Of a DNA stretch of 64,000 bases, positions 18,374 through 40,525 are shown one piece after another (position 1 is the stretch's first letter; every line of letters starts with the position of its first letter). The stretch lies in contig NZ_CP150917.1 of assembly GCF_039908645.1 (NCBI RefSeq), positions 4,041,501-4,105,500 on the forward strand. Reading direction: 5' to 3'. Under the pieces are notes generated by a model. It had not been told where the DNA came from. It saw only the letters and a list, made by a program, of their open reading frames with translations, and made no database searches. The position numbers and the translations under genes were made by a program. Source of the DNA: Pseudomonas helvetica (GTDB lineage: Bacteria > Pseudomonadota > Gammaproteobacteria > Pseudomonadales > Pseudomonadaceae).

Positions 18374-18466
18374 ATGGCTCTGTAGCGGAATGACAGGCGG
18401 ATGCGATGTTGCGTCCGCCTTCTGCTGGATTTACCACCCCAATGTCACAACAAGGAATGTTTGCAC

Positions 18467-18859: not shown

Positions 18860-18893
18860 GCGATAGCTGGGGTCTAAATGCCGAGTTGGCAGG

Positions 18894-19813: not shown

Positions 19814-20107
19814 ATGACAACTCAACACCCGCCCCACCGCTTCACCCCCATGTCCCAATTCGCCAGCGACTGCCCAGTCCTGCACATCGACAGCGACGTC
19901 CCGCTACGCGAACTCCACAACTGCGTCAGCGAACGCCTCAACGCCGTCCTCAAATACCTGAACCTCATGGCCTGCACCAGCCTCCCCGACTACGCCGAGA
20001 ATGACATCAACACCGTCACCAACATCGCCCGGATCATGGTCCAGGATGTGGCTGATGTGTTTGGGGTGATTGAGCAGCGTGGGTTTGATATGTCTAAGGG
20101 GCAGTGA
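19814..20107 (+). CDS. DUF3077 family protein
   Basis: This 97-residue protein resembles the small Pseudomonas DUF3077 family (FASDCPVLHIDSDVPLRELH, then AENDINTVTNIARIMVQDV). The family is abundant in pseudomonads and of unknown function. The ATG at 19814 follows AAGG. A strong terminator hairpin lies 15 bp after the stop, so it is probably a single-gene unit. Confidence 0.75.
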   Translation: MTTQHPPHRFTPMSQFASDCPVLHIDSDVPLRELHNCVSERLNAVLKYLNLMACTSLPDYAENDINTVTNIARIMVQDVADVFGVIEQRGFDMSKGQ

Positions 20108-20122
20108 CCCGCATTCAGCCGA

Positions 20123-20148
20123 AAAAAACCGCATTGCTGCGGTTTTTT
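20123..20148 (+). terminator. Rho-independent terminator, bidirectional form
   Basis: An AAAAAACCGCA arm pairs with TGCGGTTTTTT around a TTGC loop. It starts 15 bp after the DUF3077 stop codon. The A run and T run would let it work in both directions. Confidence 0.85.
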
Positions 20149-20389
20149 AATGCCTGCCCTGAAACTGAAAAAAACAGCCCGCCGTTTCAATCCAACGACA
20201 CAAGACCATGTAAACGCACGGCTACGATCAGGCGAATTGGCCATTGATCGACTTTGGTCTCAACCTCTTCCACTGACATTAACTTACTGGCACTCTGCTA
20301 CCCAACGGTCAGGCTGTTGAGCCATGAGCACGCCGCTCATCCCACCTCAACGTCTGCAACAGCGGATCAAAGTAGGAAAGGATACCTCA

Positions 20390-20752
20390 ATGAAAAAGTG
20401 GCTTCTGGCACTCATTTTCTTCAACTCGGTCGTGTGCTCAGCCGCGACGATCCTCAACCCAATGGATTTTGACGGTTCCGAGGCTCAGAAAAAGCAAGTG
20501 ATTGAGTCCATCACCGCAACGGTGAAAAAGGACTACTGCGAAAAAATCGACATGTGCCAGGAAAGCACCTTGCGCATGATGGAAAAGCAAAATCTTGACG
20601 CCTTCAAAGAAGCGACCAAAGCCTCAAACCGTAAGATCATGAATGCTGTAATCCATGATTACTGCGAAAAAATTGATATGTGTAACTACGGCACGATATG
20701 GATGATGTACAAGCAAAATTTTGAGGCAAGCCATAAAACACTTGCCTGGTAG
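20390..20752 (+). CDS. Small secreted protein with an internal duplication, function unknown
   Basis: The 120-residue product has a signal peptide (MKKWLLALIFFNSVVCSAA). The mature part holds two copies of a module of about 23 residues, DYCEKIDMCQESTLRMMEKQN and DYCEKIDMCNYGTIWMMYKQN, near residues 46 and 88, each with two cysteines five residues apart. I do not recognise the family. AGGAAAGG precedes the ATG. It lies just before the AT-rich nuclease locus and could be a periplasmic protein or part of an inhibitor. Confidence 0.7.
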   Translation: MKKWLLALIFFNSVVCSAATILNPMDFDGSEAQKKQVIESITATVKKDYCEKIDMCQESTLRMMEKQNLDAFKEATKASNRKIMNAVIHDYCEKIDMCNYGTIWMMYKQNFEASHKTLAW

Positions 20753-20825
20753 GGTACTTTAATCTCACAGATCCGCCCCCTTGCCCCACAAAATTTCAAA
20801 ACAATTAAATCTCAAGGAAAAGCTG

Positions 20826-22622
20826 ATGCGTTTGATTAGCAAAGTGGAAGTGGCCTACTTCCGATCAATATACAAGGATCAAATTGAAGACTGCTCGGAT
20901 ACGAATGTTATTTTTGGTCGAAACGATTCTGGAAAAAGCAACTTACTAAGAGCACTCAATCTTTTTTTCAACAATCAAACCAACCCCGACCAACCATTTA
21001 TTTTTGAAAGAGATTTTAATCACTCGCGTCGCGCTGAAGCGGAAGACGCGGAGGGGATTCGTAAATTCGTATACATAAAGGTCTGGTTTACAACTCCAGC
21101 AAACTGGAGAGCCTCACTAGGCAATACTTTCTGGGTAAAAAAACAATGGAGCATTACAACTCAGCTAGACCCCCAACTTACATCATCCATACAAGAGCAG
21201 CGACTCCAACAATATCTAACAAGATTCCTTAACAAAGTTCGCTTTCACTATATCCCAGCAATCAAAGATAGAAAAATTTTTGAAAATCTGCAAACGCAAA
21301 TCTATAAAGTGGTGTCTGCTCATGAAGAGTTCTCAGGTTCTTTAACAGAATTCGCAAATGCTCTGCGCCACAGAACAATAGAACTAAGCTCAGGCTTGCT
21401 TGATCGACTCGGAATAAGTAGTGTTATTTCCACCCCTCAGGATTTAACTGATCTTTTCCGCTCACTAGATTTTGAAACCCGCACTGAAATTGGAGATTCG
21501 TACAGCCTAACTCTTCAAAGAGGCGACGGAATTCAAGTGCGGCATATCCCTCCCATTTTGGCTTTTCTATCTGACAAAAGCTCGGAAGACTATCATATAT
21601 GGGGCTTCGAAGAGCCAGAAAACTCTCTTGAACTCGCCAATGCGATTCAGGAGGCAGAGACATTTCGTTCGTTTGGATTGCAAAACAATAAACAGATATT
21701 TCTTACAAGCCACAGCCCGGCATTTTTCTCATTAAAGAATGATGATGTCAGCCGTTATTTTGTCTCTCGGAGGGATTTAAAACTTGACAGACTGAATTCA
21801 AAAATCTCCAAAATCGACAACTCTTCCGAAGTTTTTCCTGGCGAGTTAATGGGAGAGACACCACATTTGCCCGTGATTAGTGAGTACTTGCGAGAGTCGC
21901 ACGAAAAAATAAAAAGGCATCAGCTTGAAAGTTCTCAATTAACCCAAGAAATAGCAGAGCACAATCAATCTATTGTATTTGTGGAAGGCGAATCAGATGT
22001 CATCATCTTTACAAAAGCATGGGAAATACTAATGGGAGTAGCCCCGCCATTCAGATTTGAATCAGCGGGGGGTACTACGAAAATGGAAAGTCTCGGGCGA
22101 GACGGCAAGGTGCTGAACCACCTCGCCCCAGGAAGAGCCGTTTTGGCACTGGTGGATAACGACTTAGAAGGCAGAGCGCTATTCAAAAGCAGTCGCCTAG
22201 ACCCTGGGGGACGCTGGATTAAACACAATTCAAACGGCGTTCATTGGTGTCGACTACCATTCAATCGTGATTTCGCAATATTAATGAGGAAGTTGAATAT
22301 TAATACTGCCTATTGGCCGGGCAGCCTAGAAAATCTTTTTTCACCCGAGCTAAGGAACAGAGCAGAACAAGCTGGGGTTCTTCGAATGACAACTACCCCA
22401 CACTCTGAGTTACTAGACTCTCAATGGTATCCATCTATCACACAGCACCTACAACCACGCGCTGACTTAGAGCATTTTTTTATACTTTCGGTTGATGCTG
22501 ATACCAAGCTCCAATTTGCAAATTGGATTGTAGATATTTCTGACGCGGAACCAGAAATTTTTGAGCCTTTAAGAGAGCTGTTTGAGCGATTAAATCAAAT
22601 AATCGTTGCCACAGAAGAATAA
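20826..22622 (+). CDS. OLD-like ATP-dependent nuclease (AAA ATPase plus TOPRIM)
   Basis: This 598-residue protein has an SMC/ABC-type ATPase at the N-terminus: Walker A GRNDSGKS (31-38), Walker B IWGFEEPENSLE (258-269) and H-loop TSHSP (294-298). A C-terminal TOPRIM domain follows, with FVEGESDVI (Glu387) and LVDNDLEGR (Asp444, Asp446). This order is that of OLD family nucleases, including GajA of Gabija. No UvrD helicase (GajB) follows. The gene is far richer in A/T than its flanks, pointing to horizontal transfer. A role in phage or plasmid defence is inferred. Confidence 0.87.
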   Translation: MRLISKVEVAYFRSIYKDQIEDCSDTNVIFGRNDSGKSNLLRALNLFFNNQTNPDQPFIFERDFNHSRRAEAEDAEGIRKFVYIKVWFTTPANWRASLGNTFWVKKQWSITTQLDPQLTSSIQEQRLQQYLTRFLNKVRFHYIPAIKDRKIFENLQTQIYKVVSAHEEFSGSLTEFANALRHRTIELSSGLLDRLGISSVISTPQDLTDLFRSLDFETRTEIGDSYSLTLQRGDGIQVRHIPPILAFLSDKSSEDYHIWGFEEPENSLELANAIQEAETFRSFGLQNNKQIFLTSHSPAFFSLKNDDVSRYFVSRRDLKLDRLNSKISKIDNSSEVFPGELMGETPHLPVISEYLRESHEKIKRHQLESSQLTQEIAEHNQSIVFVEGESDVIIFTKAWEILMGVAPPFRFESAGGTTKMESLGRDGKVLNHLAPGRAVLALVDNDLEGRALFKSSRLDPGGRWIKHNSNGVHWCRLPFNRDFAILMRKLNINTAYWPGSLENLFSPELRNRAEQAGVLRMTTTPHSELLDSQWYPSITQHLQPRADLEHFFILSVDADTKLQFANWIVDISDAEPEIFEPLRELFERLNQIIVATEE

Positions 22623-22633
22623 AACTATTTAAC

Positions 22634-22707
22634 AAAGGGTGACGGAATTATTTTTAGGCTAGGAGCCTGCTCCAGACACGTCAAAGCGGCAAATAAATCC
22701 GCCTTTT
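22634..22707. repeat. Degenerate copy of the GGTGACAGAT palindromic element
   Basis: AAAGGGTGACGGAATTATTTT and, further on, AAATAAATCCGCCTTTTTTT resemble the two arms of the palindrome seen intact at 29164. GCGG...CCGC before the T run may act as a weak terminator. It separates the nuclease gene from the next gene. Confidence 0.55.
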
Positions 22708-22733
22708 TTTATCTATAACATCAAGGATAAAAA

Positions 22734-24284
22734 GTGCAAAAAGAACACGACCTAATATCACTCTACCTTGAGGCAGAAACTTCAAAAATTCGCGCAGAAC
22801 TACTGAAGGAAAACCACACCCTCCGCCTGGAACTTGAAGCACTAAAGACAACTAGCACCATACTACTGAACGACGTACAAGGCAAAATAGAAAACGCAGA
22901 AGACAAGATAACAGAAAAATCCATAAATAAAACACTAGCTATCATACAACAGATAAAGAATTGGATAGGTATAGCCGCTTTAGTATTTTCGGCCATCTTT
23001 GGTATTAGCGCCTGGCTTGGATATAAGAGCCTAACCGAAAGCTTGACGACCTCCTTCAAAGACAAAGTTACTCACTGGATGCGCTTTGATGATGAAGAGA
23101 GCGGAGGCAGAAAGGCCTTAGATGAACTGCGCACCGAAGCAATACTCAATGCTTATATGATTCGACTGACGAGAGACTACTCCAGAGCAAACGAATCGTT
23201 ATTCCCAGTCAATGGCCCCGAAGAAAAGCGTTTACTGGAAGTTCTCCAAACTCCAGATACTACCTATGCTAACTTTTCAGACGCGCTAACTATTATCATA
23301 AAAAATCGCGGCCCTTTTCGCGGATCTACTCCTGATGACCTCATAGGAAAGCAGATAGCTTTACTGATGAAAACCAATGGAATTTCCCCACATAAAAGAG
23401 GACTTATATTGGAGCGCTTGAAAGGCGACGAGGCTCTACTTCCTTACTCGGCGGAAATTCTGAACAATGTTGATTACAATGTATATACACGCATAATCGC
23501 ATTCGAAAATATCAAACGATTTGATCCGAAAGCCGCCTTGATATTTGCATCTCAGAAACTAGAAAACGTGGAACCACGAATGAGGGAGGAGCTAATATTT
23601 TTTCTTGCGGAACAATCACGCCAATATGATCCGATATTAAGTTACGCCGATGAATTAATAGAGAAAAAACCTGAATACTGGGAATCAAGAACAATAGAAT
23701 TAGCCTCCCGACTCGGAGAGATAATAACTACGACCGTTAATGCTCAACCAGGAAAAATGGCCGAGCTCTACAGCAAAATAATAGATCAAGGCGCCCGCAT
23801 CGTTATTAGCGACGACAGATTCGGCCCTAAACATATCGCCATTGAACTCGACGGAGCGATTACCCTATTGAGAAAACCAGCTACACTTCTAAAGAGTAAC
23901 ACTCTGATCAAGGCGACCATAGCCAGCAGACCCATGACTATCGAGTGGCTAGTAAAAGCAATCGACTTTTTCCAAGTTAGCGACGAAGGCAATCCTCTCT
24001 CTACGTTGATACTCACGCCCACACCTAATGCATTGATACAAACAAAAAGCCACAAAACTCTATCTCAAAAAAGCATCGTGGGTGATATCTGGTTACGTAC
24101 CGAAGAGTTGCCAGACGGCAAAGATCTTACGGGAACTTGGCGAGATAGCGAAACTGGTGTTGTACACACTGAACAGATAGTTAGCATAAGCGGCTTAGCC
24201 GACTGCGACTACCGCCTATCGTTCGACGCGAATTTGCTAAAGTCCCTTTCATATGAGTATCGCTCTCCGATCGACTCGTTGTAA
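22734..24284 (+). CDS. Coiled-coil membrane-anchored protein of unknown function
   Basis: The 516-residue product starts with GTG preceded by AAGGATAA. Residues 10-70 are strongly coiled-coil. One membrane helix (about 77-97, IGIAALVFSAIFGISAWLG) follows. The long soluble C-terminal part, rich in helices, may form HEAT/ARM-like repeats (around residues 165-350), with a possible beta segment at the end. I do not recognise the family. Composition is as AT-rich as the OLD nuclease gene 111 bp upstream, so both probably arrived together. It could be an effector or sensor partner. Confidence 0.7.
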   Translation: MQKEHDLISLYLEAETSKIRAELLKENHTLRLELEALKTTSTILLNDVQGKIENAEDKITEKSINKTLAIIQQIKNWIGIAALVFSAIFGISAWLGYKSLTESLTTSFKDKVTHWMRFDDEESGGRKALDELRTEAILNAYMIRLTRDYSRANESLFPVNGPEEKRLLEVLQTPDTTYANFSDALTIIIKNRGPFRGSTPDDLIGKQIALLMKTNGISPHKRGLILERLKGDEALLPYSAEILNNVDYNVYTRIIAFENIKRFDPKAALIFASQKLENVEPRMREELIFFLAEQSRQYDPILSYADELIEKKPEYWESRTIELASRLGEIITTTVNAQPGKMAELYSKIIDQGARIVISDDRFGPKHIAIELDGAITLLRKPATLLKSNTLIKATIASRPMTIEWLVKAIDFFQVSDEGNPLSTLILTPTPNALIQTKSHKTLSQKSIVGDIWLRTEELPDGKDLTGTWRDSETGVVHTEQIVSISGLADCDYRLSFDANLLKSLSYEYRSPIDSL

Positions 24285-24345
24285 CCCTCAATCCCGAACC
24301 ACGGCTGGTCGTTTACGGCAATCTAGCTATATTTACATAGGTTGA

Positions 24346-24367
24346 AAAGCAGCCCCTAGGCTGCTTT
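24346..24367. terminator. Bidirectional terminator hairpin
   Basis: AAAGCAGCC and GGCTGCTTT are perfect arms around CCTA. It sits between the convergent membrane-protein gene and the regulator pseudogene and can serve both. Confidence 0.8.
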
Positions 24368-24372
24368 AACCA

Positions 24373-24859
24373 TCAGAAGATAGCCGGAGTATTCGCACTA
24401 ATAATCTCAGCCTCATCCGCCCCAATATTCCGCAACCGATGCGACAACGTCGTCGGAAAGTAATACTCGTCGCCAGCATTCAGCACACCGATCTGCCCAT
24501 CCACGGTCAGCTCAACCTTCCCACGCGTAACCAGTCCACACGCCTCCCCTTCCGCATGCACAATCGGCTCTTCGCCAGAGCTTGCCCCGGCGAGTATCGC
24601 TCGCGCAAAAGCCGCATCTTCCGACTCGGCACAGAATCCCCAATCAGCAACAACCGCAGCCCATGACGGCCGAGATCCAGCTGTTCATTGGCAGAAACAC
24701 GTATTGGTGCTCGCAAGTCGGTTGATCAAAGGTAAAAAAGTCCACTAGAGACATAGGAATGCCTTTAAGCAATTTCTTGCGGGAACTAACGAAAGGACTG
24801 ACGCGATTCTGTTCAATCAGGGAGAGCGTCAAATTGGTGCCCCCGCTACGCCGGGTCAG
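24373..24859 (-). pseudogene. Decayed PuuR-like XRE/cupin regulator
   Basis: Three reading frames on the minus strand join into a homologue of the intact regulator at 41074-41622. The order is SLIEQNRVSP...DFFTFDQP (about 24700-24859), then ANEQLDLGRHGLRLLLIGDSVPSRK, then EGEACGLVTRGKVELTVDG to the end (24373). At least two frameshifts and the loss of the first part of the helix-turn-helix inactivate it. Similarity at the protein level is very high, so it is a paralogous copy that decayed in place. Confidence 0.88.
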
Positions 24860-25070
24860 GACGACGACCATCAATCACAGCCAAACGGTCTAAGCTCATC
24901 CGATCGGGACCTTATCGTGCCCCAGAAGACTCGCCATTCTGATCGTATCGGCTTGCTACTGAATGGCACATGTCGATTCTGTGCATCACGTTATGCGGTC
25001 AACTCTTCCGCCCAAGCGACACGCACATTGACTCAGGGCCCCCTCCACGCCTACGTCTGGAGACACCACC

Positions 25071-25979
25071 ATGATCCGCGCCCTGTTGACCACTTTCATG
25101 CTGCTTGCTCTAAGCCTCCCGGCACATGCTCAGGTGACGCCATTTCCTGCCTCCTTTCGTACTCAGAAAATCCCTGTAGAAGGCGTCACACTGCATGTGC
25201 GTGTCGGCGGCAAGGGGCCGGCCGTGGTGCTGCTGCATGGCTTTGGCGATACCGGCGATATGTGGGCGCCACTGGCTGCCGATCTGGCCCGGGATCACAC
25301 GGTCGTGGTGCCGGACCTTCGCGGCATGGGCTTGTCGTCGATCCCGGACAGCGGCTACGACAAGAAGACCCAGGCGGGCGACATCCGTGCGGTGTTGGCC
25401 GCGCTGGGTATCGAACACTCGGTGGTCATCGGCCACGACATCGGCACCATGGTCGCCTACGCCTACGCCGCGCGTTATCCGCAGCGTACCGATCGCCTGG
25501 TGGTGATGGATGCGCCCGTGCCGGGCATTCCGCCCTGGAACGAGATTGTCCGCTCACCGATGCTTTGGCACTTCGACTTCGGCGGGCCGGATGCTGAACG
25601 CCTGGTGGCCGGCCGTGAGCGCATCTACCTGGACCGGTTCTGGAACGAGTTCGCGGGCAATCCCACCAAGGTGGATGAAGCAACCCGTCAGCATTACGCC
25701 AAGCTCTACGCCCGCCCCGGCGCCATGCACGCAGCCTTCGCCCAGTTCCGCAGCATTCGTCAGGATGAGGTGGACAACAAAGCGTCGATGGCGACGCGAC
25801 TGACCATGCCGGTGCTGGCCATTGGGGGTGAAAAATCTTTTGGAAGTAATGAGGCGATCGTGATGCGCAACGCGGCGGACAAGGTCACGGAAGTGGTGGT
25901 GCCGGGGGCAGGACATTGGCTGATGGAAGAGGCGCCGACGCAGACTATTCAGGCGGTTCGCGACTTTATTGCGCAGTGA
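25071..25979 (+). CDS. Secreted alpha/beta hydrolase with Asp nucleophile (epoxide hydrolase/dehalogenase type)
   Basis: This 302-residue protein has a signal peptide cleaved near AHA-Q (20/21). The oxyanion motif is LLHGFGDTGDMW, the nucleophile elbow is GHDIGTM (Asp123), and the catalytic His is in PGAGHW (His282). An Asp at the elbow is typical of epoxide hydrolases and haloalkane/haloacetate dehalogenases, not esterases. The mature enzyme would be periplasmic. The substrate is not evident, and the gene appears to be transcribed alone. Confidence 0.87.
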   Translation: MIRALLTTFMLLALSLPAHAQVTPFPASFRTQKIPVEGVTLHVRVGGKGPAVVLLHGFGDTGDMWAPLAADLARDHTVVVPDLRGMGLSSIPDSGYDKKTQAGDIRAVLAALGIEHSVVIGHDIGTMVAYAYAARYPQRTDRLVVMDAPVPGIPPWNEIVRSPMLWHFDFGGPDAERLVAGRERIYLDRFWNEFAGNPTKVDEATRQHYAKLYARPGAMHAAFAQFRSIRQDEVDNKASMATRLTMPVLAIGGEKSFGSNEAIVMRNAADKVTEVVVPGAGHWLMEEAPTQTIQAVRDFIAQ

Positions 25980-26143
25980 CGGGTCGAGGTATCGGAGTTT
26001 TTTTGGAGGCCACTGCACTCAGGGCCTGCCCTGAAGTTATTTAAGGGGCTAGACACTGCACGACAACACACTAATAACGATGCTTGCCCTCCCCCGTAAG
26101 CAGATATTGCCGACACTGGACTCCGCCCCCTATGTTCCTGATT

Positions 26144-26725
26144 TCAGCTACGGACGCCCTTGAGCAGAAGCTCCAGTGCCCCGAGCGCTTGCGACAGCCT
26201 GTTCGAACCAGGCTCTGCTTCTGCGATCCAAAAGGCTGCTTCGCACAAGCTTCCATAGATCAGCATCGCCAGTGCTTCGGGATCGGACTGCACAACCCCC
26301 TCCTGGAGCATCAGTTGCTCAAGCATTTTCTGTAGAGAGGCAACACAATGACGGTGCGCCTCCGGCGGAGAGCTACCCAGTACAGCCCGGGCATCACGCA
26401 ACACGATGCGTTGGATTTCAGGCTCCTGCGCCATTTCCAGGTAAGCACGGCAGCGGTTTCTGAAGGCCTCCCACGCGTTTTCGGTGCTGTCCGAAATCGC
26501 TTGTAACCGCGCATCCATCTCAGCATCAATCTGTGCGACCACAGCGGTGAGCAAGCCTTTCTTGTCTCCAAAATGATGATAAAGCGCGCCCCTGGTCAGG
26601 TTAGCCAGTGCTGTCAAATCATCCATGGACGTCTCTGCATAGCCGCGTTCGCTGAAAATCTGGCGTGCAGTCTTGAGCAGTGTGGCGCGGGTTTCTTCCA
26701 TGTCAGCGCGAGTACGTCGAGCCAT
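26144..26725 (-). CDS. TetR family transcriptional repressor
   Basis: This 193-residue protein has the TetR helix-turn-helix (TRATLLKTARQIFSERGYAETSMDDL, then LTRGALYHHFGDKKGLL). The C-terminal ligand domain resembles AcrR/NalC-type efflux regulators. AGGAGA precedes the ATG. It is divergent from an MFS gene, with a 48-bp nested palindrome between them, so it most likely represses both genes until an inducer binds. Confidence 0.92.
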   Translation of the reverse strand: MARRTRADMEETRATLLKTARQIFSERGYAETSMDDLTALANLTRGALYHHFGDKKGLLTAVVAQIDAEMDARLQAISDSTENAWEAFRNRCRAYLEMAQEPEIQRIVLRDARAVLGSSPPEAHRHCVASLQKMLEQLMLQEGVVQSDPEALAMLIYGSLCEAAFWIAEAEPGSNRLSQALGALELLLKGVRS

Positions 26726-26752
26726 GATTTCTCCTGGGTTGATAAGCCGTTT

Positions 26753-26800
26753 ACATTCACCTCGTATGATTATAGGATTTTAATCATACGCGATGAATGT
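26753..26800. promoter_or_regulatory. Nested palindromic operator between tetR and MFS genes
   Basis: Inner arms CGTATGATTA (26763-26772) and TAATCATACG (26781-26790) are perfect. Outer arms ACATTCAC (26753-26760) and ATGAATGT (26793-26800) match in seven of eight positions about the same centre. It lies 28 bp from the TetR start and 60 bp from the MFS start. Binding by the TetR protein is inferred. Confidence 0.75.
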
Positions 26801-26859
26801 ATTTTTTCAGTTCAGCGACGCCCAAGCAAGCTGCGCTAATTCGATAAGGAGAATCGAGC

Positions 26860-28068
26860 ATGGCCAATCCGTACCGAGTACTGTTCCAAGCCCCCGGCAC
26901 CAAGGGTTTTTCCTTGGCCGGCCTCCTCGCCCGTTTACCGCTACCTATGACGGGTATCGGCATCATTACAATGCTGTCACAGCTGCGGGGCAGCTACGCG
27001 CTGGCCGGCGCGGTCTCAGCTACCTTTGTCCTGACGTACGCATTGATGTCGCCGCAAGTTTCGCGCTTGGTGGATCGATACGGTCAGCGCCGGGTACTGC
27101 CGGTGTCTACCGGCATCAGCGCTCTGGGCATTCTTCTGCTACTAGCTTGCACCTACTGGCATACACCCGACTGGACTCTGTTCGTGGCAGCCGCGCTGGC
27201 GGGTTTCATGCCGAGCATGTCAGCGATGGTCCGCGCCCGCTGGACGGCTATCTACAGGGGCGAGCCGCACCTGCAAACGGCTTATTCACTGGAAACAGTG
27301 CTAGACGAAGTTACCTTCATCGCAGGCCCTCCCATTTCCGTTGGCTTGAGCGTGGCCGTCTTCCCACAGGCTGGGCCGTTAGCGGCGGTAGCACTGCTGG
27401 TGATCGGCGCACTTGCTTTGGCTGCGCAAGTCGCTACCGCCCCCCCCGTGGAATCCGCTGAAGAAATAAGCACACGCACAGCCTCGGTCTTTCGCCTGTC
27501 GGATGTCCGGTTGTTAACATTGTTGATGGTCGCGATGGGCGTCATCGTCGGGACGGTCGATATCGTGAGCGTCGCGTTCGCCGAACAAATGGGCAGTCCT
27601 GCGGCGGCCAGTATCGTGCTGTCGTGTTACGCCATCGGTTCGTGCGCAGCCGGCCTGCTGTTTGGTGCGCTCAAACTGAAAACGCCGTTACACAAACTCT
27701 TGCTGATGGGTGGTCTGGCCACCGCAGCGACGACACTACCCTTGTTAATGGCTGGCAACATTGCCGGGCTCGCCGGCGCGGTCCTGGTAGCAGGCCTGTT
27801 CTTTGCGCCAACAATGATTGTGGCGATGTCACTGGTAGAGAGAATCGTGCCGGAAAGACAATTGACTGAAGGGATGACCTGGTTGCTGGCCGGCTTGAAT
27901 GTTGGAGTAGCTCTGGGGGCTGCAGCGTCCGGCCAGTTGGTGGATATGGAAGGTGCACGCTATGGATTCAACGTAGCGTTAGCGGCAGGGGCAGCGGTGC
28001 TCCTCGTAGCCATTTGGGGATACCGACGTATGCGAGAACACGCGCTGGCGGCAGCGTACTCAGTGTAA
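26860..28068 (+). CDS. MFS transporter, probable efflux pump
   Basis: This 402-residue twelve-helix major facilitator has AAGGAG before the ATG. The loop SRLVDRYGQRRVL carries MFS motif A. It is divergent from TetR with a shared operator, the usual layout for inducible drug or metabolite efflux. No signature defines the substrate. Confidence 0.9.
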   Translation: MANPYRVLFQAPGTKGFSLAGLLARLPLPMTGIGIITMLSQLRGSYALAGAVSATFVLTYALMSPQVSRLVDRYGQRRVLPVSTGISALGILLLLACTYWHTPDWTLFVAAALAGFMPSMSAMVRARWTAIYRGEPHLQTAYSLETVLDEVTFIAGPPISVGLSVAVFPQAGPLAAVALLVIGALALAAQVATAPPVESAEEISTRTASVFRLSDVRLLTLLMVAMGVIVGTVDIVSVAFAEQMGSPAAASIVLSCYAIGSCAAGLLFGALKLKTPLHKLLLMGGLATAATTLPLLMAGNIAGLAGAVLVAGLFFAPTMIVAMSLVERIVPERQLTEGMTWLLAGLNVGVALGAAASGQLVDMEGARYGFNVALAAGAAVLLVAIWGYRRMREHALAAAYSV

Positions 28069-31054: not shown

Positions 31055-32815
31055 TTAGTAAACCTGTACCCGCCACAGCTCCCGCGAGGAGGAAGCCGGC
31101 GACATCGGCAGTCGGCCGTGCAGTGTCCGATAGTTGTCGATCAGCACCAGATCACCTTCGCTCCATTGATGGGCGATCAGGCAATCCGGGTCATAAACCA
31201 GCGCGTTGACCTGTTCAAGCAGCGCCTGCTGGGCCTGCTCATCATGGTCCTGCACAGACTGGCTCAGGGTCTGCAATGTCGAGTCGGTGCCCTCTTGGTA
31301 ACGCAGGATGAGTTCACCACTACGGGGGTGATGATCCACCAGGCTGTACATGCGCGGCGAACCGCCGAAGTAAGTCATCTTGGTGTAGTAGGTGATGTTC
31401 ACTGCCTGCCATTGTCGGGCGACGTGCTGCCCGACTTTTCGCAGCACGTTTCGGCTGTCGACGATGGTGGTCTGACCCTCGCCCGGCTGCGGCGCGGTCT
31501 TGCAATACAGCATGAATTTGCTGGCGCAGAATTTCGGATTGCGCTGAACCTGTGGGTCGCTGTCGGGCAGCATGTTCAGGTCCCAGTGCAACGGCGTTTT
31601 CTCCAGCGAGTGCACAACGCCTTGGGGTTTGTCCGCGGGCTTGACCACATGCACGGCACCGAAGGCCCACTCGTACAGCGTGCCAAAGCGTTCGCAGCTG
31701 CGAGCAAAACTGTCCTGGTCGTCGAAGCGACAGCCCTTGAGGCAGACGAAACCAAAGGTTTCCACCAGTGCCTCCAGCAGGCTGGTGGACAGTCGCTCGA
31801 ACCCCAGCCCCAGCGGGTCTCGCACCACCAGGCCAAACAGCGGCAGCTTTTGCAGTTCGTATTCGAAGCCTTGGGCCTGCGGGTTTTCTGTTTGGTGGTA
31901 GAGCCATGGCCGCCCCTGCCAGGTGACCAGCACATGGTGGTCGAGGTCGACCTGGGCCCGTGCGCGAAGACGCTGGCTTCCATCGATGTTGCACACCGGC
32001 ACGGCATGCCAGGGGCTGTCGACACGGGTCAGCCCTTCAGCCAACCCAACGGTGAATTTGGGTCCGGCATTGTTGTACTGATGGACCGACAATCGAATGT
32101 CGTCGCCGAAGAAACGATCCACTGCCGCATTCAAGGCCTGCCCGCGAAACATCATCTGGTAGGCTTTGAAGTTGATTTGCTGCAGGTACTCGTCCTCGCT
32201 CTGCCCGTCCTCACGGCACAGGCGCAGGTCGTTGTACAAATGACTGCAGAGGTTGTCATGGGCCTGGCTGAGGGATTCATCGTGCCGGCTCTGCTCGATC
32301 AGTTCTCCAAGGTTTTTCCAGGGTAGACGGGCCTGCTTGACCAGGCTGGCGCGGACCGACTCGGCACTTTGGGCCTGCGGGAACAGGTCTTCCATGCTGA
32401 CCCACTGAATCGTATGGGTGGTGCACAGTTCACGCAAAGCCCGGTTGTAGGCTGCGCGAACGTCATCGGCCACACCAACGATGTCATTGAACGTCGTCCC
32501 GTCGCTGAGGATCGACACCACACAGCCCGGTGTGTGCAATGCGGCGATGGCTTGGCCGAGCTGGTCGAGGCGCTCGATAGCCATCACCTCACCATAATCC
32601 GGCAGCACGCCGAAGGTCTGGTCACTGGCATTGGGCGACTTGCAGGGAAAACCTGGCAGTACCAGACGTACTGGCAGGTTTTGATCAAAGTACTGCCCCA
32701 GGCTGCGCGCCAGATGCGCCCGGCCTTGTGTTTCGAAACAATCATCCGTGCCTTTGAGCAGATAACCAGCCAGCAAATCGCTGACGGCAGCGATCCAGGC
32801 GTCTCTATGTTCCAT
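31055..32815 (-). CDS. Isocyanide synthase fused to Fe(II)/2-oxoglutarate dioxygenase (PvcA-PvcB type)
   Basis: This is a 586-residue fusion. The N-terminal half is a Dit1/PvcA isocyanide synthase (LPGFPCKSPN at about 54-63, PWH at 268-270). The C-terminal part, from about 330, is a TauD/PvcB-like dioxygenase with the iron ligands HWD (His410, Asp412) and distal His566 in DNYRTLHGR. Such enzymes turn an amino acid (often Tyr or Trp) into an isonitrile and then desaturate or decarboxylate it. In P. aeruginosa the two activities are separate proteins. It is the last gene of a three-gene operon, and AAGGAAG sets the start. Confidence 0.87.
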   Translation of the reverse strand: MEHRDAWIAAVSDLLAGYLLKGTDDCFETQGRAHLARSLGQYFDQNLPVRLVLPGFPCKSPNASDQTFGVLPDYGEVMAIERLDQLGQAIAALHTPGCVVSILSDGTTFNDIVGVADDVRAAYNRALRELCTTHTIQWVSMEDLFPQAQSAESVRASLVKQARLPWKNLGELIEQSRHDESLSQAHDNLCSHLYNDLRLCREDGQSEDEYLQQINFKAYQMMFRGQALNAAVDRFFGDDIRLSVHQYNNAGPKFTVGLAEGLTRVDSPWHAVPVCNIDGSQRLRARAQVDLDHHVLVTWQGRPWLYHQTENPQAQGFEYELQKLPLFGLVVRDPLGLGFERLSTSLLEALVETFGFVCLKGCRFDDQDSFARSCERFGTLYEWAFGAVHVVKPADKPQGVVHSLEKTPLHWDLNMLPDSDPQVQRNPKFCASKFMLYCKTAPQPGEGQTTIVDSRNVLRKVGQHVARQWQAVNITYYTKMTYFGGSPRMYSLVDHHPRSGELILRYQEGTDSTLQTLSQSVQDHDEQAQQALLEQVNALVYDPDCLIAHQWSEGDLVLIDNYRTLHGRLPMSPASSSRELWRVQVY

Positions 32816-32844
32816 AGAACAACTTCCTTGAGGGTTTGTGTGTA

Positions 32845-33564
32845 TCAATAGGATTTGACGGTATCGCCATGCTCGGTGAGCGCATGCGCTGTCCCGCAGA
32901 CTTGCTGCAGAATGCGCAACAACCCGGCCGGTTGCTCACAGCAGAAGTCCGGAGCTAGGGCCTGCAACGTCTGAGTCAGGCCGTACCCCCAGGTGACCGC
33001 TGCCGAGTACATACCTGCGGCACGGGCAGTTTTCAGGTCGATCTCTGTGTCACCGACGAACAAACAGCGTTGCGGATCAACCGACAACCGCCGGGCGGCT
33101 TCCCACGCCACATCCGGCTGAGGTTTGAGTGACCGGCCCGTGCGATGCCCCAGAATCGGCCCGAAAACATTCTGCGGCAGCAATGTTCTGGAAACCTGCA
33201 AGGCCATTTCCTCGGCCTTGTTGGTCACGATAGCCAGCGGCAGCTGTAACTGGCGGCAGCCTTCGAGCAATTCCAGTACACCGCTGAATGGCCGGGAAAA
33301 TTGAACCAGGTTGTGCTGATACAGCGTCACGTAGCGCTGGTGCAGGGCGATCGCATCAGCGATACCAAACTGCGCGGCAACCCGCTCAATCATCGCCGTG
33401 GTCCCGCCGCCGATATAGCCCCGCACCGTTTGCGCGGTCAGCGCCGGGCAACCGTGTTCGAGTAACACCTGGTTCAGACACCAGGTGATGTCCGGCAAGG
33501 TGTCGACCAAGGTTCCATCCAAATCGAAGAGTACGGCTTCGACCCGCAACCGGGACGCCATCAT
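32845..33564 (-). CDS. HAD family phosphatase (phosphoglycolate phosphatase-like)
   Basis: This 239-residue HAD hydrolase has motif I DLDGTLVDT (Asp14, Asp16), a C1 cap, motif II VTNK, the Lys in SLKPQP, and motif IV GDTEIDLKTARAAG. All catalytic residues are present. It overlaps the upstream isocyanide synthase by 4 bp and lies 29 bp before the fusion gene, so it is part of the isonitrile operon. It may remove a phosphate from a precursor or intermediate; ribulose 5-phosphate is the known C1 donor of isocyanide synthases. Confidence 0.88.
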   Translation of the reverse strand: MMASRLRVEAVLFDLDGTLVDTLPDITWCLNQVLLEHGCPALTAQTVRGYIGGGTTAMIERVAAQFGIADAIALHQRYVTLYQHNLVQFSRPFSGVLELLEGCRQLQLPLAIVTNKAEEMALQVSRTLLPQNVFGPILGHRTGRSLKPQPDVAWEAARRLSVDPQRCLFVGDTEIDLKTARAAGMYSAAVTWGYGLTQTLQALAPDFCCEQPAGLLRILQQVCGTAHALTEHGDTVKSY

Positions 33565-34556
33565 TGAGCACTGGCGTAGTGACAAGGACGCCCCTTGCGG
33601 AACACCAGACGGTGGTAGCGCTCATCGACATTACTGCGTTTTTCGAGGGTGACCACACCCCGTCGCTTGATGGCTACCGAATGCCAGGGAGTGCGCCACA
33701 GGTCACTGGTGGGCACCAGCCGGATACCGATCTTCGTCGACACCGCCAATTGCGGGTGAATCGACAGGCGCAGGCAATGCGGGTAGCGCGCCAGTAACAG
33801 GGCGCTCCAGGCTTCACTGCGCTGAATCACCCGCTGGGAGGCCGGCTTGGCGACCTTCTTCACCGCATTCAGGCTCATGCCGGCGAATACCTTGAGCCCC
33901 GAATAATCCTCGGACAGAAAGCGATGGATACCGCAGTACATCAACATCATGTGCGGTTCATCCTTGAAGCGCTGTTGCAACAGGATCAATGACTGACCGT
34001 GCTCGATCATCATCTCCTCACGCATGGCGTCCAGACAATCAAGCTGAGGATAGGCATCCCTGAGGTCGAAATGGGCGAACGTACCGGGATAGTGCTGATC
34101 GGCGTAGTCCTGGATAGCGTCGGTGTAAGCCTTGACGTCAGAATCGGGAACATGCACCAGGTCAGAGAACACATAACCATCGGAGCAGATATGAATCAGC
34201 GCACCCGGCGCATAGATCTCCTGGATCTCCTCACACAGGCGGTGTAACTCGTCGATTGCATGGTGTTCAGCAAGATCAGGGAGATGGCTCAGGGTTTTCT
34301 TGCGGCTGGGCGACTTGCCGGGAAAAGCTGGCAAGACCATTTCGACTTTGCGACCGCTCTCGACCGCCTGCATTACCTTCGCCAGATGGGGTTCCAGCAC
34401 CTGCAACGAAAGCTCATGATCCTGTTCCGGGGCAAGACTGCGACGCCGAAACAGACATTCGAGAATTTGCTGGGCAATGTTCATGTGGGGGGTGTTCTGA
34501 TGCGCATGCACCAGCTGACCGTCCGCCGGTTGGGCAACGGTATTTGAACCTTGCAT
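33561..34556 (-). CDS. Isocyanide synthase (Dit1/PvcA family), stand-alone
   Basis: This 331-residue member of the DIT1/PvcA family has VLPAFPGKSPSRKK (about 75-88), HICSDGYVFSD in the middle and WRTPWHSVAI near the end, matching the fused protein downstream. The family uses an amino acid and ribulose 5-phosphate to make the isonitrile group. The start at 34556 has AAAGGA six bases upstream. It is the first gene of the operon. Two synthases in one operon suggest either two isonitriles in the product or that one partner has a different role. Confidence 0.85.
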   Translation of the reverse strand: MQGSNTVAQPADGQLVHAHQNTPHMNIAQQILECLFRRRSLAPEQDHELSLQVLEPHLAKVMQAVESGRKVEMVLPAFPGKSPSRKKTLSHLPDLAEHHAIDELHRLCEEIQEIYAPGALIHICSDGYVFSDLVHVPDSDVKAYTDAIQDYADQHYPGTFAHFDLRDAYPQLDCLDAMREEMMIEHGQSLILLQQRFKDEPHMMLMYCGIHRFLSEDYSGLKVFAGMSLNAVKKVAKPASQRVIQRSEAWSALLLARYPHCLRLSIHPQLAVSTKIGIRLVPTSDLWRTPWHSVAIKRRGVVTLEKRSNVDERYHRLVFRKGRPCHYASAQ

Positions 34557-34580
34557 AGACAATCCTTTGTGTGGTGAAAA

Positions 34581-34599
34581 ACGGCTATTTTTTGGCCGT
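34581..34599 (-). terminator. Hairpin plus T run in the leader of the isonitrile operon
   Basis: On the minus strand ACGGC and GCCGT pair and are followed by TTTTTC, 24 bases before the first ATG. It resembles a weak intrinsic terminator in the 5' leader and could mark attenuation; it may also be chance. Confidence 0.35.
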
Positions 34600-34748
34600 C
34601 AGCAGATATGCCTTACCTGCGGGCGGCTAAATTCCTACAAGTCGTAAGAGTTTGTCAATCGTGGCCATCTGGAATATTACGTCTTGCACGAGCCCCCGCC
34701 CCTCGGGGGTCTGCCGCCAGTTAAGCAACTAACCCCTGCCTGACCTGC

Positions 34749-34838: not shown

Positions 34839-35681
34839 CTAGCTATATCTGCCCTGAAGCCATCCCTCAAACTTACTCTGAGCAGCGCCTTCCAAACTGG
34901 GCGCGTAATAAACCAAGTGCAAGTGCCTGTCGGCGTCAATTATCAGGGTTGCATGCTCAAACGAGATATTTCCGAATGACGGAATTTCAAAATTTCTGAG
35001 GCCTTGGCAAGGGCCGTGAATATCCTGCCTGTTCCACCAATACTTGAACTCTGCACTGACTTTCTCGAGGCTGCGCACCAGCTCAGCAACATCGCTTTGC
35101 GCCGAAGCATGAACAAAATCCCTGCGAAAGCTAGAGAGCATTTGTATCGCCTGCTCCTCCCAGGGGCACAACAGCGAACGCATTTTCTCATCAGTAAACA
35201 GCATCCACAGGAGGTTGCGCTGCTCTGGAGGCTTGTCTGCAAAGTTGAATACTTTATCGCCGGCCGGATTCCATGCGAGAACGTCCCAACGCAAACTCAG
35301 GACATAGGCGGGGCGCAGCGGCATGTCTGCCATCAAACGATGGATGATCGTTGGAACGACGCACCAAGTCTGTGCCTGTTCTGCTGGAGCACGTTGGTAG
35401 GTCAGCAAGTAAAGGTGCCTGCGTTCCATGGCGTCAAGTTTCAATACTCGACATAGACTGTCGAGGAAAGCCGGTGAAACCCCAATATCGCGGCCTTGCT
35501 CAAGCCATGTATACCAAGTCAAGCCGACGCCTGCCAACGCGGCGACCTCCTCACGACGCAGCCCCGGCGTCCTTCTTCGCCCAGTCGTTGGTAATCCTGC
35601 TTGCTCGGGTGAAATGCGCTCTCGGCGACTGCGCAAAAATGCCGCCAACTCGTCTCGGGTGCGTTCGAGTGTTCTTCCCAT
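34839..35681 (-). CDS. XRE family regulator with MmyB-like ligand domain
   Basis: This 280-residue protein has an N-terminal helix-turn-helix (RRTPGLRREEVAALAGVGLTWYTWLEQGRD) and the C-terminal MmyB-like domain (LRWDVLAWNPAGDKVF, then EIPSFGNISFEHATL). Such regulators are thought to bind a lipid-like or small ligand. It is divergent from an MFS gene, with two TGTAACA palindromes between them, and probably represses it. It lies next to the isonitrile operon, but a regulatory link to that operon is only inferred. Confidence 0.9.
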   Translation of the reverse strand: MGRTLERTRDELAAFLRSRRERISPEQAGLPTTGRRRTPGLRREEVAALAGVGLTWYTWLEQGRDIGVSPAFLDSLCRVLKLDAMERRHLYLLTYQRAPAEQAQTWCVVPTIIHRLMADMPLRPAYVLSLRWDVLAWNPAGDKVFNFADKPPEQRNLLWMLFTDEKMRSLLCPWEEQAIQMLSSFRRDFVHASAQSDVAELVRSLEKVSAEFKYWWNRQDIHGPCQGLRNFEIPSFGNISFEHATLIIDADRHLHLVYYAPSLEGAAQSKFEGWLQGRYS

Positions 35682-35728: not shown

Positions 35729-35810
35729 TGATTAGCTTGCTAAAGAATTTGCCGCGCCGGGGATGACGCGTAATTGTTGCGCCGCCCTAATTTCGCAAAG
35801 GGAGATTCTT

Positions 35811-37025
35811 ATGTTCAGGACAACACCCTCTTCGGTCTATTGGATTGCTGTCGGCGCCTTCGCGCTGGGCATGGCGTCCTATGTAATGGCAGGCCTCGTG
35901 CCTATGATTGAACAGGCCTTTAATGTGCAGGTAGCGGTGGCTGCTCAATTGGTGGCTGTGTTCTCTTTGGCTTATGGCATCGGATCGCCTATTTTCGTGG
36001 CCCTCTTACCCCCACAACGACAGAGGCTCGGGTTGTTGTCCGCCTTGGCGATCTTCGTCTTGGCCAATATGGCCAGCGCTGTCGTTGATGATTTCGCTGC
36101 GCTGTTAGTGTGTCGTGCAATTGCCGGGCTCGGGGCCGGAGTTTATCTGGCAACCGGAATCACTGCTTGTGTTGCAGTATCTGAACCTAACGGGCGCGGT
36201 CGAGCGATCGCCATCATCATGGCTGGAATGGCCAGTGGAACCGTGCTGGGTGTCCCTTTCAGTCTGCTGCTTGCCGAGCTGTCAGGGTGGCAGGCCGCTC
36301 TGTGGCTGATTGCTCTGCTTGGTGCTGCCTCATGGCTGGGGTTGGTAGTCAACCTTCCAGCGCTCCCTGCCGGACCGCAGATGACAATCCGTAGCAAACT
36401 CTTATTGCTAGAGAACCGGAATGTAGTAAGCACCCTGCTGGTCTCGCTGCTAGCCGCAGTGTCCAGCTTGGGGATGTACACTTTCATCGCCCCGCTCATG
36501 ACGGATCCCGCCTACGGAGGAATCGATAGCGTGACGCCATATCTCTGGGTTTGGGGCCTTGGTGGGGTAGCAGGAAGTTTCTTGATTACCCCGCTGGTTG
36601 AACGTATTGAAGGACCCGTGCTGATATTTATCATAATGCTGGTGTTGACTGCGTCACTATTGGCGCTGCCGCTGGCCGCGGCCATATCGCCTTGGTTAGC
36701 CATGATTCCTATCGCTATATGGGGATGCGTGGGGTGGGCCTTACAGGTTCCGCAAAATAACGAGTTGATCTCAGAGCGGGAGCGAAATGGCGATGGTAAT
36801 TTAGCAGTCGCCTTGAACGAGTCAGCACTTTACCTGGGGAGCGCATTAGGTGCTGGCGCAGGAGGTTTCCTATTGCTGTTGGAAATGCCAAGTTGGACGC
36901 TAGCGATCGGTGCCGGTGCAGTGGCGTTTTTTGGCGCCGCATTGCAGCTTCTGAAGCTGCGCACACATCGATCTCGCCCATTCGGTAAAGTATTTCGAGC
37001 ATCGGTCGCTGACCGCTTTAAATAA
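35811..37025 (+). CDS. MFS transporter (AraJ-like efflux)
   Basis: This 404-residue twelve-helix exporter has GGGAG before the ATG. The first helices (VYWIAVGAFALGMASYVMAGLV) and the motif region AIAGLGAGVYLATG match the AraJ/NepI/sugar-efflux group. It is divergent from the XRE regulator and may export a toxic metabolite; the isonitrile product of the adjacent operon is one candidate. Confidence 0.88.
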   Translation: MFRTTPSSVYWIAVGAFALGMASYVMAGLVPMIEQAFNVQVAVAAQLVAVFSLAYGIGSPIFVALLPPQRQRLGLLSALAIFVLANMASAVVDDFAALLVCRAIAGLGAGVYLATGITACVAVSEPNGRGRAIAIIMAGMASGTVLGVPFSLLLAELSGWQAALWLIALLGAASWLGLVVNLPALPAGPQMTIRSKLLLLENRNVVSTLLVSLLAAVSSLGMYTFIAPLMTDPAYGGIDSVTPYLWVWGLGGVAGSFLITPLVERIEGPVLIFIIMLVLTASLLALPLAAAISPWLAMIPIAIWGCVGWALQVPQNNELISERERNGDGNLAVALNESALYLGSALGAGAGGFLLLLEMPSWTLAIGAGAVAFFGAALQLLKLRTHRSRPFGKVFRASVADRFK

Positions 37026-39013: not shown

Positions 39014-39342
39014 GGGTTGATAGTGTTTGGGGTGATCCGGCTTGTCAATCTCGGAGCGGAGTTACGAAACTTCCGCGTCCGGCTCAGGTGGTTTGAAAAC
39101 GTTCGGGTAAGAAAGCAGCCACTGTCACCTGTCCCTTTAACTTGCTGAAGAACACATGACTAAACAAGTACACCCCCTATGTGCATGTAGGCATCTTCAT
39201 CTCCAGATTTCTCGTTTTGCTGTACGAAAATTCTGAATCTTCTCAGCCCACCTAGCCACAACAACAAGAACCAAAACTTCCCCGATAGAGCAACTGTTAC
39301 GCTCGGAACAGAGTGTTCAGCTGACTAAAAGGAGTGACACCT

Positions 39343-39843
39343 ATGGCCAATCACGGTTACATGAGCATTACCGGCAAACGCCAAGGTTTGATTTCCGCCG
39401 GGTGTTCCGGTCTAAGCTCCATCGGTAATAAATGTCAAACTGATCATGAAGACGAAATCATGATTTTGGCTTACTCGCACAACATGATTACGGGTAATGA
39501 CGGTGGAGGTTCAGGCGGTCGCGGCAAGCACCTGCCTATCATGATTACCAAGAACATTGATAAATCATCGCCACTGTTGGCCAGTGCGCTTCATGAGCGA
39601 GAAGAGGTGGAGTGCACTATCCATTTTTATCGAACATCACCCGCGGGCGGCCAGGATAAATATTACTCAATACGACTCACGGGGGCGAAAATTGCCCACA
39701 TCACCCTTCAAGTACCTCACTCCACATATAGGAGCGATGCCCAACCGCAAGAATTAGTATCCATTCGTTATCGCGATATCAGTTGGACGCACATTCAGGC
39801 GGGCACGTGTGCTTATAGTACTTGGGGAAACGAGGATGAGTGA
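39343..39843 (+). CDS. hcp: Type VI secretion Hcp family protein
   Basis: This 166-residue Hcp tube protein has the N-terminal MANHGYMSITGKRQGLISAGCSG and the central HLPIMITKNIDKSSPLLASAL and EVECTIHFYRTSP motifs of the Hcp1/HsiC-linked family. AAAAGGAG precedes the ATG. Hcp hexamers stack into the expelled tube and carry small effectors. No other T6SS structural gene is nearby, so this is an orphan hcp island served by a main cluster elsewhere. Its end overlaps the next gene by 8 bp. Confidence 0.93.
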   Translation: MANHGYMSITGKRQGLISAGCSGLSSIGNKCQTDHEDEIMILAYSHNMITGNDGGGSGGRGKHLPIMITKNIDKSSPLLASALHEREEVECTIHFYRTSPAGGQDKYYSIRLTGAKIAHITLQVPHSTYRSDAQPQELVSIRYRDISWTHIQAGTCAYSTWGNEDE

Positions 39844-40525
39844 TGACATCTGTGACATTCACGACGTGACCAAAGCTGCGTCCGATCTTGTTGCGTTCGG
39901 GTGTTCTATCGGTGCTACGCAGCTGTACGATAGTTTTTTTCAGCTTCAATTTAGCTCGATTGTTTCTTCTTATGCTGATGAAATTATCCAAGCGGTTGAT
40001 GAAGGTATCATCAGCGCACGGGAGGGATTACAAGAAATCAGAGAGGAGTATGCCGAGTTATCGTCCAAGGTGCTTTTTTATGCTCAAAACGGCGCGGGGA
40101 TGGTGGCGGGAGCCATGCAGATGGAGGCTGGCGCCAGCATTTTAGGGAGCACAAGAGGTTTGGCCGTAGTACCCGGAATACCTTTAATCGCGCATGGATT
40201 CAATAACATCTATGAAGGCGCAGGCAATATCTACAATGGCCCTGGCGCACCCGGGGTGGTAGGGCCTGTTCGAGAGTTTTATCAGGACCGGCTTGGAAGC
40301 ATTTACGAGGGTAATATGGCCTACTACTCCATGGACGTGTACTTATCTATAAACGGCTTATCAAAGCTTGTTCGAAAGCCCGGCTCGATGCAGTTATTCA
40401 ACCACGACCCTATCAACTATGAAATGGCCTACAAACAAATGGGGAGGCTCGCTTTGGCTTTCGAAGCGTTAGTCGACGCCATGACAATCAAAAACAATGA
40501 TAAACGAGAGCAACGTAACAACTGA
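39836..40525 (+). CDS. Probable Hcp-dependent T6SS effector (DUF4225-like)
   Basis: This 229-residue protein overlaps hcp by 8 bp, so it is translationally coupled. It starts MSDDICDIHDVTKAASDLVA and has a hydrophobic, glycine-rich centre (AGMVAGAMQMEAGASILGSTRGLAVVPGIPLIAHG) followed by NIYEGAGNIYNGPGAPG. I place it in the DUF4225-type Hcp-associated proteins. The hydrophobic centre suggests membrane insertion in the target cell; the activity is not proven. A convergent membrane protein is the likely immunity factor. Confidence 0.78.
   Translation: MSDDICDIHDVTKAASDLVAFGCSIGATQLYDSFFQLQFSSIVSSYADEIIQAVDEGIISAREGLQEIREEYAELSSKVLFYAQNGAGMVAGAMQMEAGASILGSTRGLAVVPGIPLIAHGFNNIYEGAGNIYNGPGAPGVVGPVREFYQDRLGSIYEGNMAYYSMDVYLSINGLSKLVRKPGSMQLFNHDPINYEMAYKQMGRLALAFEALVDAMTIKNNDKREQRNN

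Follow-up and report, generated by a model that had tools for sequence, protein, structure and literature searches.

A conserved gene trio in Pseudomonas, predicted to make an isonitrile, encodes two unlike synthases, a fused oxygenase and a HAD phosphatase

Why would a bacterium keep two PvcA-type isonitrile synthases in one short operon, one of them fused to an oxygenase, with a phosphatase gene between them? This question is raised by a locus in Pseudomonas helvetica. The window analysed here is a stretch of 64,000 nucleotides (contig NZ_CP150917.1, positions 4,041,501 to 4,105,500 of the forward strand) from a single-contig Pseudomonas genome of 6.44 Mb (G000). The trio lies on the minus strand and is transcribed in the order ICS-A, HAD phosphatase, ICS-DOX fusion. 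ICS-A is a stand-alone PvcA/IsnA-type isonitrile synthase of 331 aa (33561..34556, ATG start). The second gene encodes a HAD-superfamily, Gph-like phosphatase (32845..33564, ATG start), and its start overlaps the end of ICS-A by 4 bp (ATGA). The third encodes an isonitrile synthase (ICS) and an Fe(II)/2-oxoglutarate-dependent oxygenase (DOX) in one chain of 586 aa (31055..32815, ATG start). The start codons of the trio were refined in this analysis. A longer fusion open reading frame (ORF) of 597 aa begins at a TTG upstream of the chosen ATG; among 19 listed fusions the length was 586 aa in 17 and 597 aa in two (L020 and L021). Fusion residues are numbered in the 586-aa form. The sequence-only reading had proposed two PvcA-type synthases and a HAD phosphatase in one operon with a 4-bp overlap, and all three genes and the overlap were confirmed. 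Judged from the encoded proteins, the trio very probably makes a reactive isonitrile compound.

The same trio was found in related bacteria. A contig scan, which finds close relatives only, gave 20 named loci, all in Pseudomonas, with the fusion 90-99% identical; the nearest named relative found was P. fluorescens FW300-N2E3 (99%), whose trio proteins are 99-100% identical to those of the window. Searching genomes for the fusion and the three-gene order was the check that the sequence-only reading had suggested, and the order recurred in 20/20 loci with the fusion frame open and full length. Two of these (L026 and L030) lie on one 'Joined_contig' of P. frederiksbergensis 36C6 with matching lists of surrounding ORFs; they may represent a single copy (duplication or assembly artefact). 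Across 398 genomes of the genus, a PF05141 protein was present in 25, and 19 of those had two matches. In 19/19 two-synthase genomes, ICS-A had beside it the HAD gene and a frame for the fusion of 587 codons or more; several of these genomes are the same assemblies as the named loci. The genomes with a single match comprised five with a canonical synthase and a separate oxygenase (on another contig in G083) and one, G574, with a lone fusion that is 25% identical. None of the 398 genomes holds ICS-A or the trio fusion singly, and the single-synthase proteins are at most 41% identical to ICS-A. A phylum sample of 398 genomes gave six matches including the window's own, five of them above the cut-off.

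Against four relatives, ICS-A had a ratio of nonsynonymous to synonymous substitution (Ka/Ks) of 0.07-0.14, the fusion one of 0.06-0.15 and HAD one of 0.16-0.37, with synonymous sites close to saturation for two of these relatives. Such values place all three genes under purifying selection. With frames open and conserved in 20/20 loci and Ka/Ks of 0.06-0.37, the trio is not a product of chance.

By Pfam score, both synthases fall within the isonitrile synthase family. Against PF05141 (DIT1_PvcA; gathering score 26.4), ICS-A scored 254.1 bits and the fusion 190.6 bits; the fusion match spans residues 52-307 of the 597-aa ORF (31928..32695). ICS-A matched the PvcA structure 3e59 (E=6e-56) and also, strongly, a solved bacterial isonitrile synthase family protein, and the first half of the fusion matched isonitrile synthases. 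The two synthases are 28% identical to each other. In the synthase tree, ICS-A and the stand-alone synthase of Burkholderia stagnalis plas2 formed a 100/100 clade, and the fused synthase domains separated from all others at 99/99; the long-branch rows F_Bsta2 and F_G574 are unsure in placement. On this tree, ICS-A and the fused synthase domain belong to different deep lineages.

The residues of the two synthases were compared at 28 polar columns that are invariant in 10 canonical synthases, a list based on conservation rather than on a structure-based catalytic set. ICS-A retains 27/28 of these positions and the fusion domain 16/28. The residues kept in the fusion include the Lys-Ser of LPxFPxKSP, the acid pair of PDxxE, the Asp of SDGxxF, the Arg and His of RLSxH, a Lys, and the Trp-His of PWH. 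Its replacements include Cys to Leu, Ser to Gly, Trp to Leu and Gln to Tyr. Since Ser-to-Gly and Trp-to-Leu are shared with the fusions of B. stagnalis and G574, they seem to mark the fused lineage and not to be signs of decay. The sequence-only reading had named a loss of catalytic residues from both synthases as evidence that would tell against it; no such loss was found, and even the fusion keeps a charged core.

The second half of the fusion is a TauD/PvcB-like oxygenase domain (31067..31786; PF02668 match at residues 355-594 of the 597-aa ORF). Its TauD score of 122 bits is far above the cut-off, and it matched PIsnB (7tcl, E=5e-26) and PvcB (3eat, E=6e-18). The iron site of PIsnB is formed by His101, Asp103 and His250, and Arg265 and Trp74 grip the substrate carboxylate (PMC9467999). 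The iron ligands align to H410, D412 and H566 of the fusion, and Arg265 and Trp74 to R582 and W383. Thus the Pfam matches in one ORF and the alignment to PIsnB and PvcB bear out an in-frame fusion with intact iron ligands, and the kept carboxylate-anchoring Arg and Trp are as expected for an isocyano-acid substrate. In the oxygenase tree, seven true fusions formed a 100/98 clade; the long-branch rows F_G574 and Hym of that tree are unsure in placement. A candidate second B. stagnalis fusion (L076) was rejected, as its synthase and oxygenase lie in different frames and it falls outside this clade. The predicted fold of the fusion, made from 12 near-identical sequences, had a mean predicted local distance difference test (pLDDT) score of 37 and supports no claim.

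The phosphatase belongs to the HAD superfamily. Its HAD_2 match (118 bits) is far above the cut-off. Against the NCBIfam phosphoglycolate phosphatase (Gph) equivalogs it stayed below the cut-offs, the best score among the best 25 of 36 matches being 153.7 against 225. The HAD motifs DxDGT, TNK, KP and GDTxxD are present in 11/11 aligned orthologues. The most likely role of the HAD phosphatase would be to dephosphorylate a sugar phosphate that arises in the synthase reaction, either as a by-product or as an intermediate.

The DNA ahead of ICS-A contains a conserved block of about 105 nt, which runs from TTGAC to the start codon and is shared by the aligned lineages. The leader alignment held 26 of 28 listed leaders, the near-copies L020 and L023 being omitted; L028, L056, L058, L064, L066 and L082 lie outside the 28. 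The block opens with a -35-like element, TTGACA (34653..34658, minus strand like the leader features below). TTGAC was present in 26/26 leaders, but the leaders had been trimmed at TTGAC, and a consensus scan found no full sigma-70 promoter. Hairpin 1 (GCAGGT...ATCTGC; 34602..34620) has 98.1% of cells paired, with three of its six pairs varying on one side. Hairpin 2 (TGACGGCC...AGCCGTTT; 34579..34601) has 92.7% of cells paired, and four of its eight pairs are changed on both sides. Together, the two hairpins have 95.1% of cells paired. The covariation score of the leader was 0.293 compared to 0.201 +/- 0.017 in shuffles, 0/500 of which scored as high, and a slid structure gave 0.06-0.11. RNAalifold on the same alignment recovered 5/6 and 5/8 of the pairs, one extra covarying pair in hairpin 1 and a doubtful long-range helix. 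The variable length of loop 2 argues for RNA rather than a DNA operator.

A model of the leader matched 5/5 left-out trio loci given to it and 0/13 non-trio loci; the five loci amount to four different sequences, each closely related to some leader in the alignment. In the host genome, the model had one match, with 150 of 2800 first-look candidates scored. Rfam gave no above-threshold match in the window, and on the P. corrugata leader region one sub-threshold hit (23.3 bits against a gathering score of 58), upstream and clear of the hairpins. The ICS-A ribosome-binding site AAAGGA (34563..34568) contains GGA, which was read by eye in 26/26 leaders; GGA was also seen by eye in loop 1 of 21/26 leaders and in loop 2 of 9/26. 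An A(N)GGA pattern, at the Shine-Dalgarno sequence and at further sites, serves to find RsmA/CsrA targets (PMC4066749), and the host encodes three CsrA-family genes. This pattern of hairpins and GGA suggests that the leader may be under RsmA/CsrA control.

A second upstream element was confined to the corrugata group. In 7/7 leaders of this group, a palindrome, most commonly TGTCCCGGTATTCCGTGACA, lies about 148 nt upstream of the start. Mismatches were counted over 32 distinct upstream stretches against a consensus of the syr-syp box. The seven corrugata-group leaders had 1-2 mismatches, and the 25 others, including the window, had 4-7. Since the seven leaders are close relatives, their agreement is not independent. 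In P. corrugata, DIT1_1, gph_2 and DIT1_2 have been reported to be activated by PcoR and RfiA, wild-type transcript levels exceeding those of pcoR and rfiA mutants by more than three logFC (PMC5890197). RfiA is described as a LuxR-type protein without a domain for binding N-acyl-homoserine lactone, like SyrF, which binds the syr-syp box (PMC10928948). The confinement of the box to the corrugata group agrees with the RfiA dependence reported for P. corrugata, and its absence from the window predicts that the window's strain is not under RfiA control in that way.

From these results, we propose that the trio is a self-contained operon for an amino-acid-derived isonitrile, governed by its leader and, in the corrugata group, also controlled by RfiA. 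We give this reading a probability of about 0.6. For the enzymes we infer the following steps. ICS-A and the fused synthase would each form an alpha-isocyano acid by condensing an amino group with a pentulose phosphate. Desaturation by the fused oxygenase would then yield either an isocyanoacrylate or a vinyl isonitrile, and HAD would act on the sugar phosphate that the synthases use or on what remains of it. The structured leader would govern expression, possibly via binding of RsmA/CsrA proteins, and in the corrugata group the activator RfiA may also act through the syr-syp-like box. As the synthases come from different lineages and differ at many invariant positions, they probably have different substrates or catalyse different steps, and the product may thus carry two isonitriles.

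Several observations weigh against this proposal. Both synthases scored far below the cut-off of 600 for the NCBIfam L-tyrosine isonitrile synthase NF045653 (ICS-A 214.8 bits, fusion 76.5 bits), and so the amino-acid substrate is not settled by the family score. The fusion domain is without 12/28 invariant polar positions and may be altered or inactive. In the published selectivity rule for these oxygenases, K/R with N/H gives vinyl and L with C gives acrylate (PMC9467999). The fusions carry Leu at position 107 (PvcB-like) and Gln at position 188 (neither class) in 5/5 trio fusions aligned, and with this disagreement the rule does not predict which of the two, isocyanoacrylate or vinyl isonitrile, would be formed. 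As to the leader, none of the six pairs of hairpin 1 shows a double change. The number of double-change pairs was reached by 171/500 shuffles and that of pair types by 122/500, and these two measures are those least prone to false signal from relatedness. The hairpins were drawn from the L036 row after the alignment was viewed, and single-sequence folds were little better than shuffles (z -0.9 to -1.5). In the window's leader, GGA is missing from loop 1 and from loop 2, which makes the Rsm case weaker for the window itself. The box could be due to chance and shared descent, since L036 has two matches with up to three mismatches allowed when 1.63 are expected. A limited search of the open-licence literature found no assigned product for the Pseudomonas trio.

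The polar positions missing from the fused domain, and the long branch across which this domain lies, are also what would be seen if the operon built one isonitrile centre only. The fused synthase would then be degenerate, dock ICS-A and pass its product to the oxygenase. However, the Lys, Asp, Glu, Arg, His and Trp core is retained in the fused domain, and the whole fusion is under strong constraint, although its Ka/Ks describes the whole chain and not this domain alone. In addition, the fungal ICS-DOX protein XanB has been proposed to perform both steps in one chain (PMC5974471). We consider a single centre unlikely, but a serious alternative. A stronger form of economy, in which either synthase is enough and the second is dispensable, has a precedent in the hapalindole clusters, where AmbI2 was reported to be redundant alongside AmbI1 and AmbI3 (PMC4236562). 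The hapalindole synthases are at least 78% identical, whereas those of the trio share 28% identity and fall into separate lineages; moreover, both are held by 19/398 genus genomes and neither is found alone. Redundancy is therefore improbable. It is also conceivable that the products are N-formyl amino acids and not isonitriles, since yeast Dit1 is a member of PF05141 and its product has been reported to be, most likely, formyl tyrosine (PMC7345447). Against this stand the strong matches of ICS-A to PvcA and to the solved bacterial protein, and a 2026 report in which a fungus with Dit1-like proteins yields tyrosine isonitrile itself (PMC13005658). We regard N-formylation as very improbable.

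The role given to HAD must be weighed against the view that it is a hitchhiking general phosphatase without a part in the pathway. HAD evolves fastest of the trio, and synthase-oxygenase pairs elsewhere do without it. By blastp, neither a relative of the trio HAD nor a second synthase was seen where three other class genomes encode a synthase and an oxygenase, and 7/7 further synthase-oxygenase loci, mostly short, had no relative of this HAD either. With the B. stagnalis fusion as query, 4/369 class genomes matched including the window's own, and the other three carried the synthase and oxygenase as separate ORFs. On the other hand, HAD is present in 20/20 named loci and 19/19 two-synthase genomes and overlaps ICS-A. 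It was also considered as a recent duplicate of a host phosphatase, an origin rejected since its closest host paralogue is only 31% identical, and this distance speaks against a hitchhiker as well. In B. stagnalis plas2, a protein-tyrosine-phosphatase-family gene stands directly before the fusion. Among solved proteins it is closest to a DUF442 phosphatase (E=3e-13), its DSP/PTP (DUF442-like) Pfam score of 26.1 is just below the cut-off of 27, and the annotation splits it into two pieces that lie in different frames. That a phosphatase of an unrelated type occupies this position is the best clue to a need for dephosphorylation, although it comes from one record with the gene in two pieces. A hitchhiking HAD thus seems unlikely, to about the same degree as a single isonitrile centre. 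More speculatively, and with considerable doubt on our part, the two-synthase pathway may include an obligatory dephosphorylation, in which an adduct or by-product carrying a sugar phosphate is processed, a task that would not arise in canonical systems with one synthase. HAD in Pseudomonas and DSP/PTP in Burkholderia would then have been recruited independently, and the cassette would be switched by a dedicated two-hairpin Rsm-type leader.

How far does the trio differ from known systems? The pvcABCD system of P. aeruginosa, which makes paerucumarin, has separate pvcA and pvcB genes, one synthase and pvcC/pvcD tailoring, and is not known to include a HAD. The trio shares its PvcA-type synthase and PvcB-type oxygenase chemistry, but has a fused oxygenase, a second synthase and HAD. 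No pvcC/D-type enzyme was found by Pfam scan among the seven proteins neighbouring the trio in the window. Fusions of an ICS with a dioxygenase have been described as V. cholerae IsnAB and fungal IcsB and XanB (PMC5974471). They likewise hold a synthase domain and a PF02668 oxygenase in one chain; the window's fusion is accompanied by a second, canonical synthase and HAD, and is set apart from them by description, not by sequence. The icsA/icsB clusters of A. fumigatus resemble the trio in having one ICS and one ICS-DOX per cluster, but they are fungal and no HAD is mentioned in the excerpted text (PMC5974471). Hapalindole clusters (I1/I2/I3) have two synthases and one oxygenase (PMC4236562), but those synthases are near-duplicates and nothing is fused.

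The closest likeness in print is in P. corrugata, for which a 2018 report lists adjacent DIT1_1, gph_2 and DIT1_2, the first of which has an additional clavaminate-synthase-like domain (PMC5890197). These are three adjacent genes with the same description and order as the trio, and P. corrugata DSM 7228 (L036) carries the trio with a 90% identical fusion. The two are equated by description and not by locus tags, and the available part of that report gives expression data. The sequence-only reading was therefore right about a two-synthase isonitrile operon with a fused oxygenase and intact ligands, but its claim of novelty was too strong in view of the V. cholerae and fungal fusions, the hapalindole clusters and the P. 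corrugata report. Its forecast of a product with one or two isonitriles, perhaps metal-binding or antibiotic, was likewise too strong, as the sequence gives no ground for deciding it. The enzymes of the trio form a set of known kind, and their arrangement, which is unusual and well conserved, has already been glimpsed in print.

Outside Pseudomonas, B. stagnalis plas2 (NZ_CP156687.1, L075) comes near to this arrangement. Its stand-alone synthase is 48% and its fusion 37% identical to those of the trio, and a phosphatase-family gene precedes the fusion. It differs in the DSP/PTP type of that gene, in an MFS gene between the synthases, and in glycosyltransferase and DprE1/UbiA-like genes after them. 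The genes after the synthase pair (within 16763-27549), a glycosyltransferase and a DprE1-like, UbiA-HAD and SDR set, resemble decaprenyl-phosphoryl-arabinose synthesis and hint at a glycosylated product there. Other isonitrile-type loci were also seen. On a Hymenobacter swuensis plasmid (L077, 5257-9036), a fusion of a TauD oxygenase and a UbiA prenyltransferase adjoins an ORF combining TetR and an isonitrile synthase, which is unusual. Two Streptomyces linear plasmids (L108 and L109) carry an isocyanide synthase, P450, asnB, MFS and an iron-type ABC importer in identical order.

The surroundings of the trio are variable. No gene cluster other than the trio was common to all 20 loci within the flanks of up to 10 kb. 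The neighbourhoods of the corrugata and mandelii/fluorescens groups differ; these two groups were compared by sequence, and a divergent third group (L079-L082) was listed only. An MFS transporter (35763-37025) and an MmyB-like regulator (34839-35681) were rejected as cluster members, as they adjoin the trio in only one of the 20 loci, that of the nearest relative (L020). A Pfam scan of 10 flanking ORFs from other loci revealed no tailoring enzyme; 7/10 were without a match, and some are probably spurious. A phage or plasmid origin was rejected, with no phage match and with 14 plasmid records matched, every one below 60% identity. Elsewhere in the window, an OLD/AAA_15-type ATPase of 613 aa with weak AriA/GajA PADLOC matches is followed by a 516-aa protein with a hydrophobic stretch seen by eye (20781-24284, plus strand), a possible defence pair. 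At 39334-40525 (plus strand), an Hcp-type protein of the type VI secretion system (PF05638) overlaps a DUF4225 protein, possibly an orphan Hcp with cargo.

Isonitriles bind metals and include antibacterial and virulence-linked compounds (PMC5974471, PMC13005658). The trio is compact, with three genes, and is found in several species of the genus, P. corrugata and P. mediterranea among them. In P. corrugata, it has been reported under a quorum-sensing regulator, and the proposal is directly testable. The trio would show what role a phosphatase has in isonitrile chemistry and why two unlike synthases stay together.

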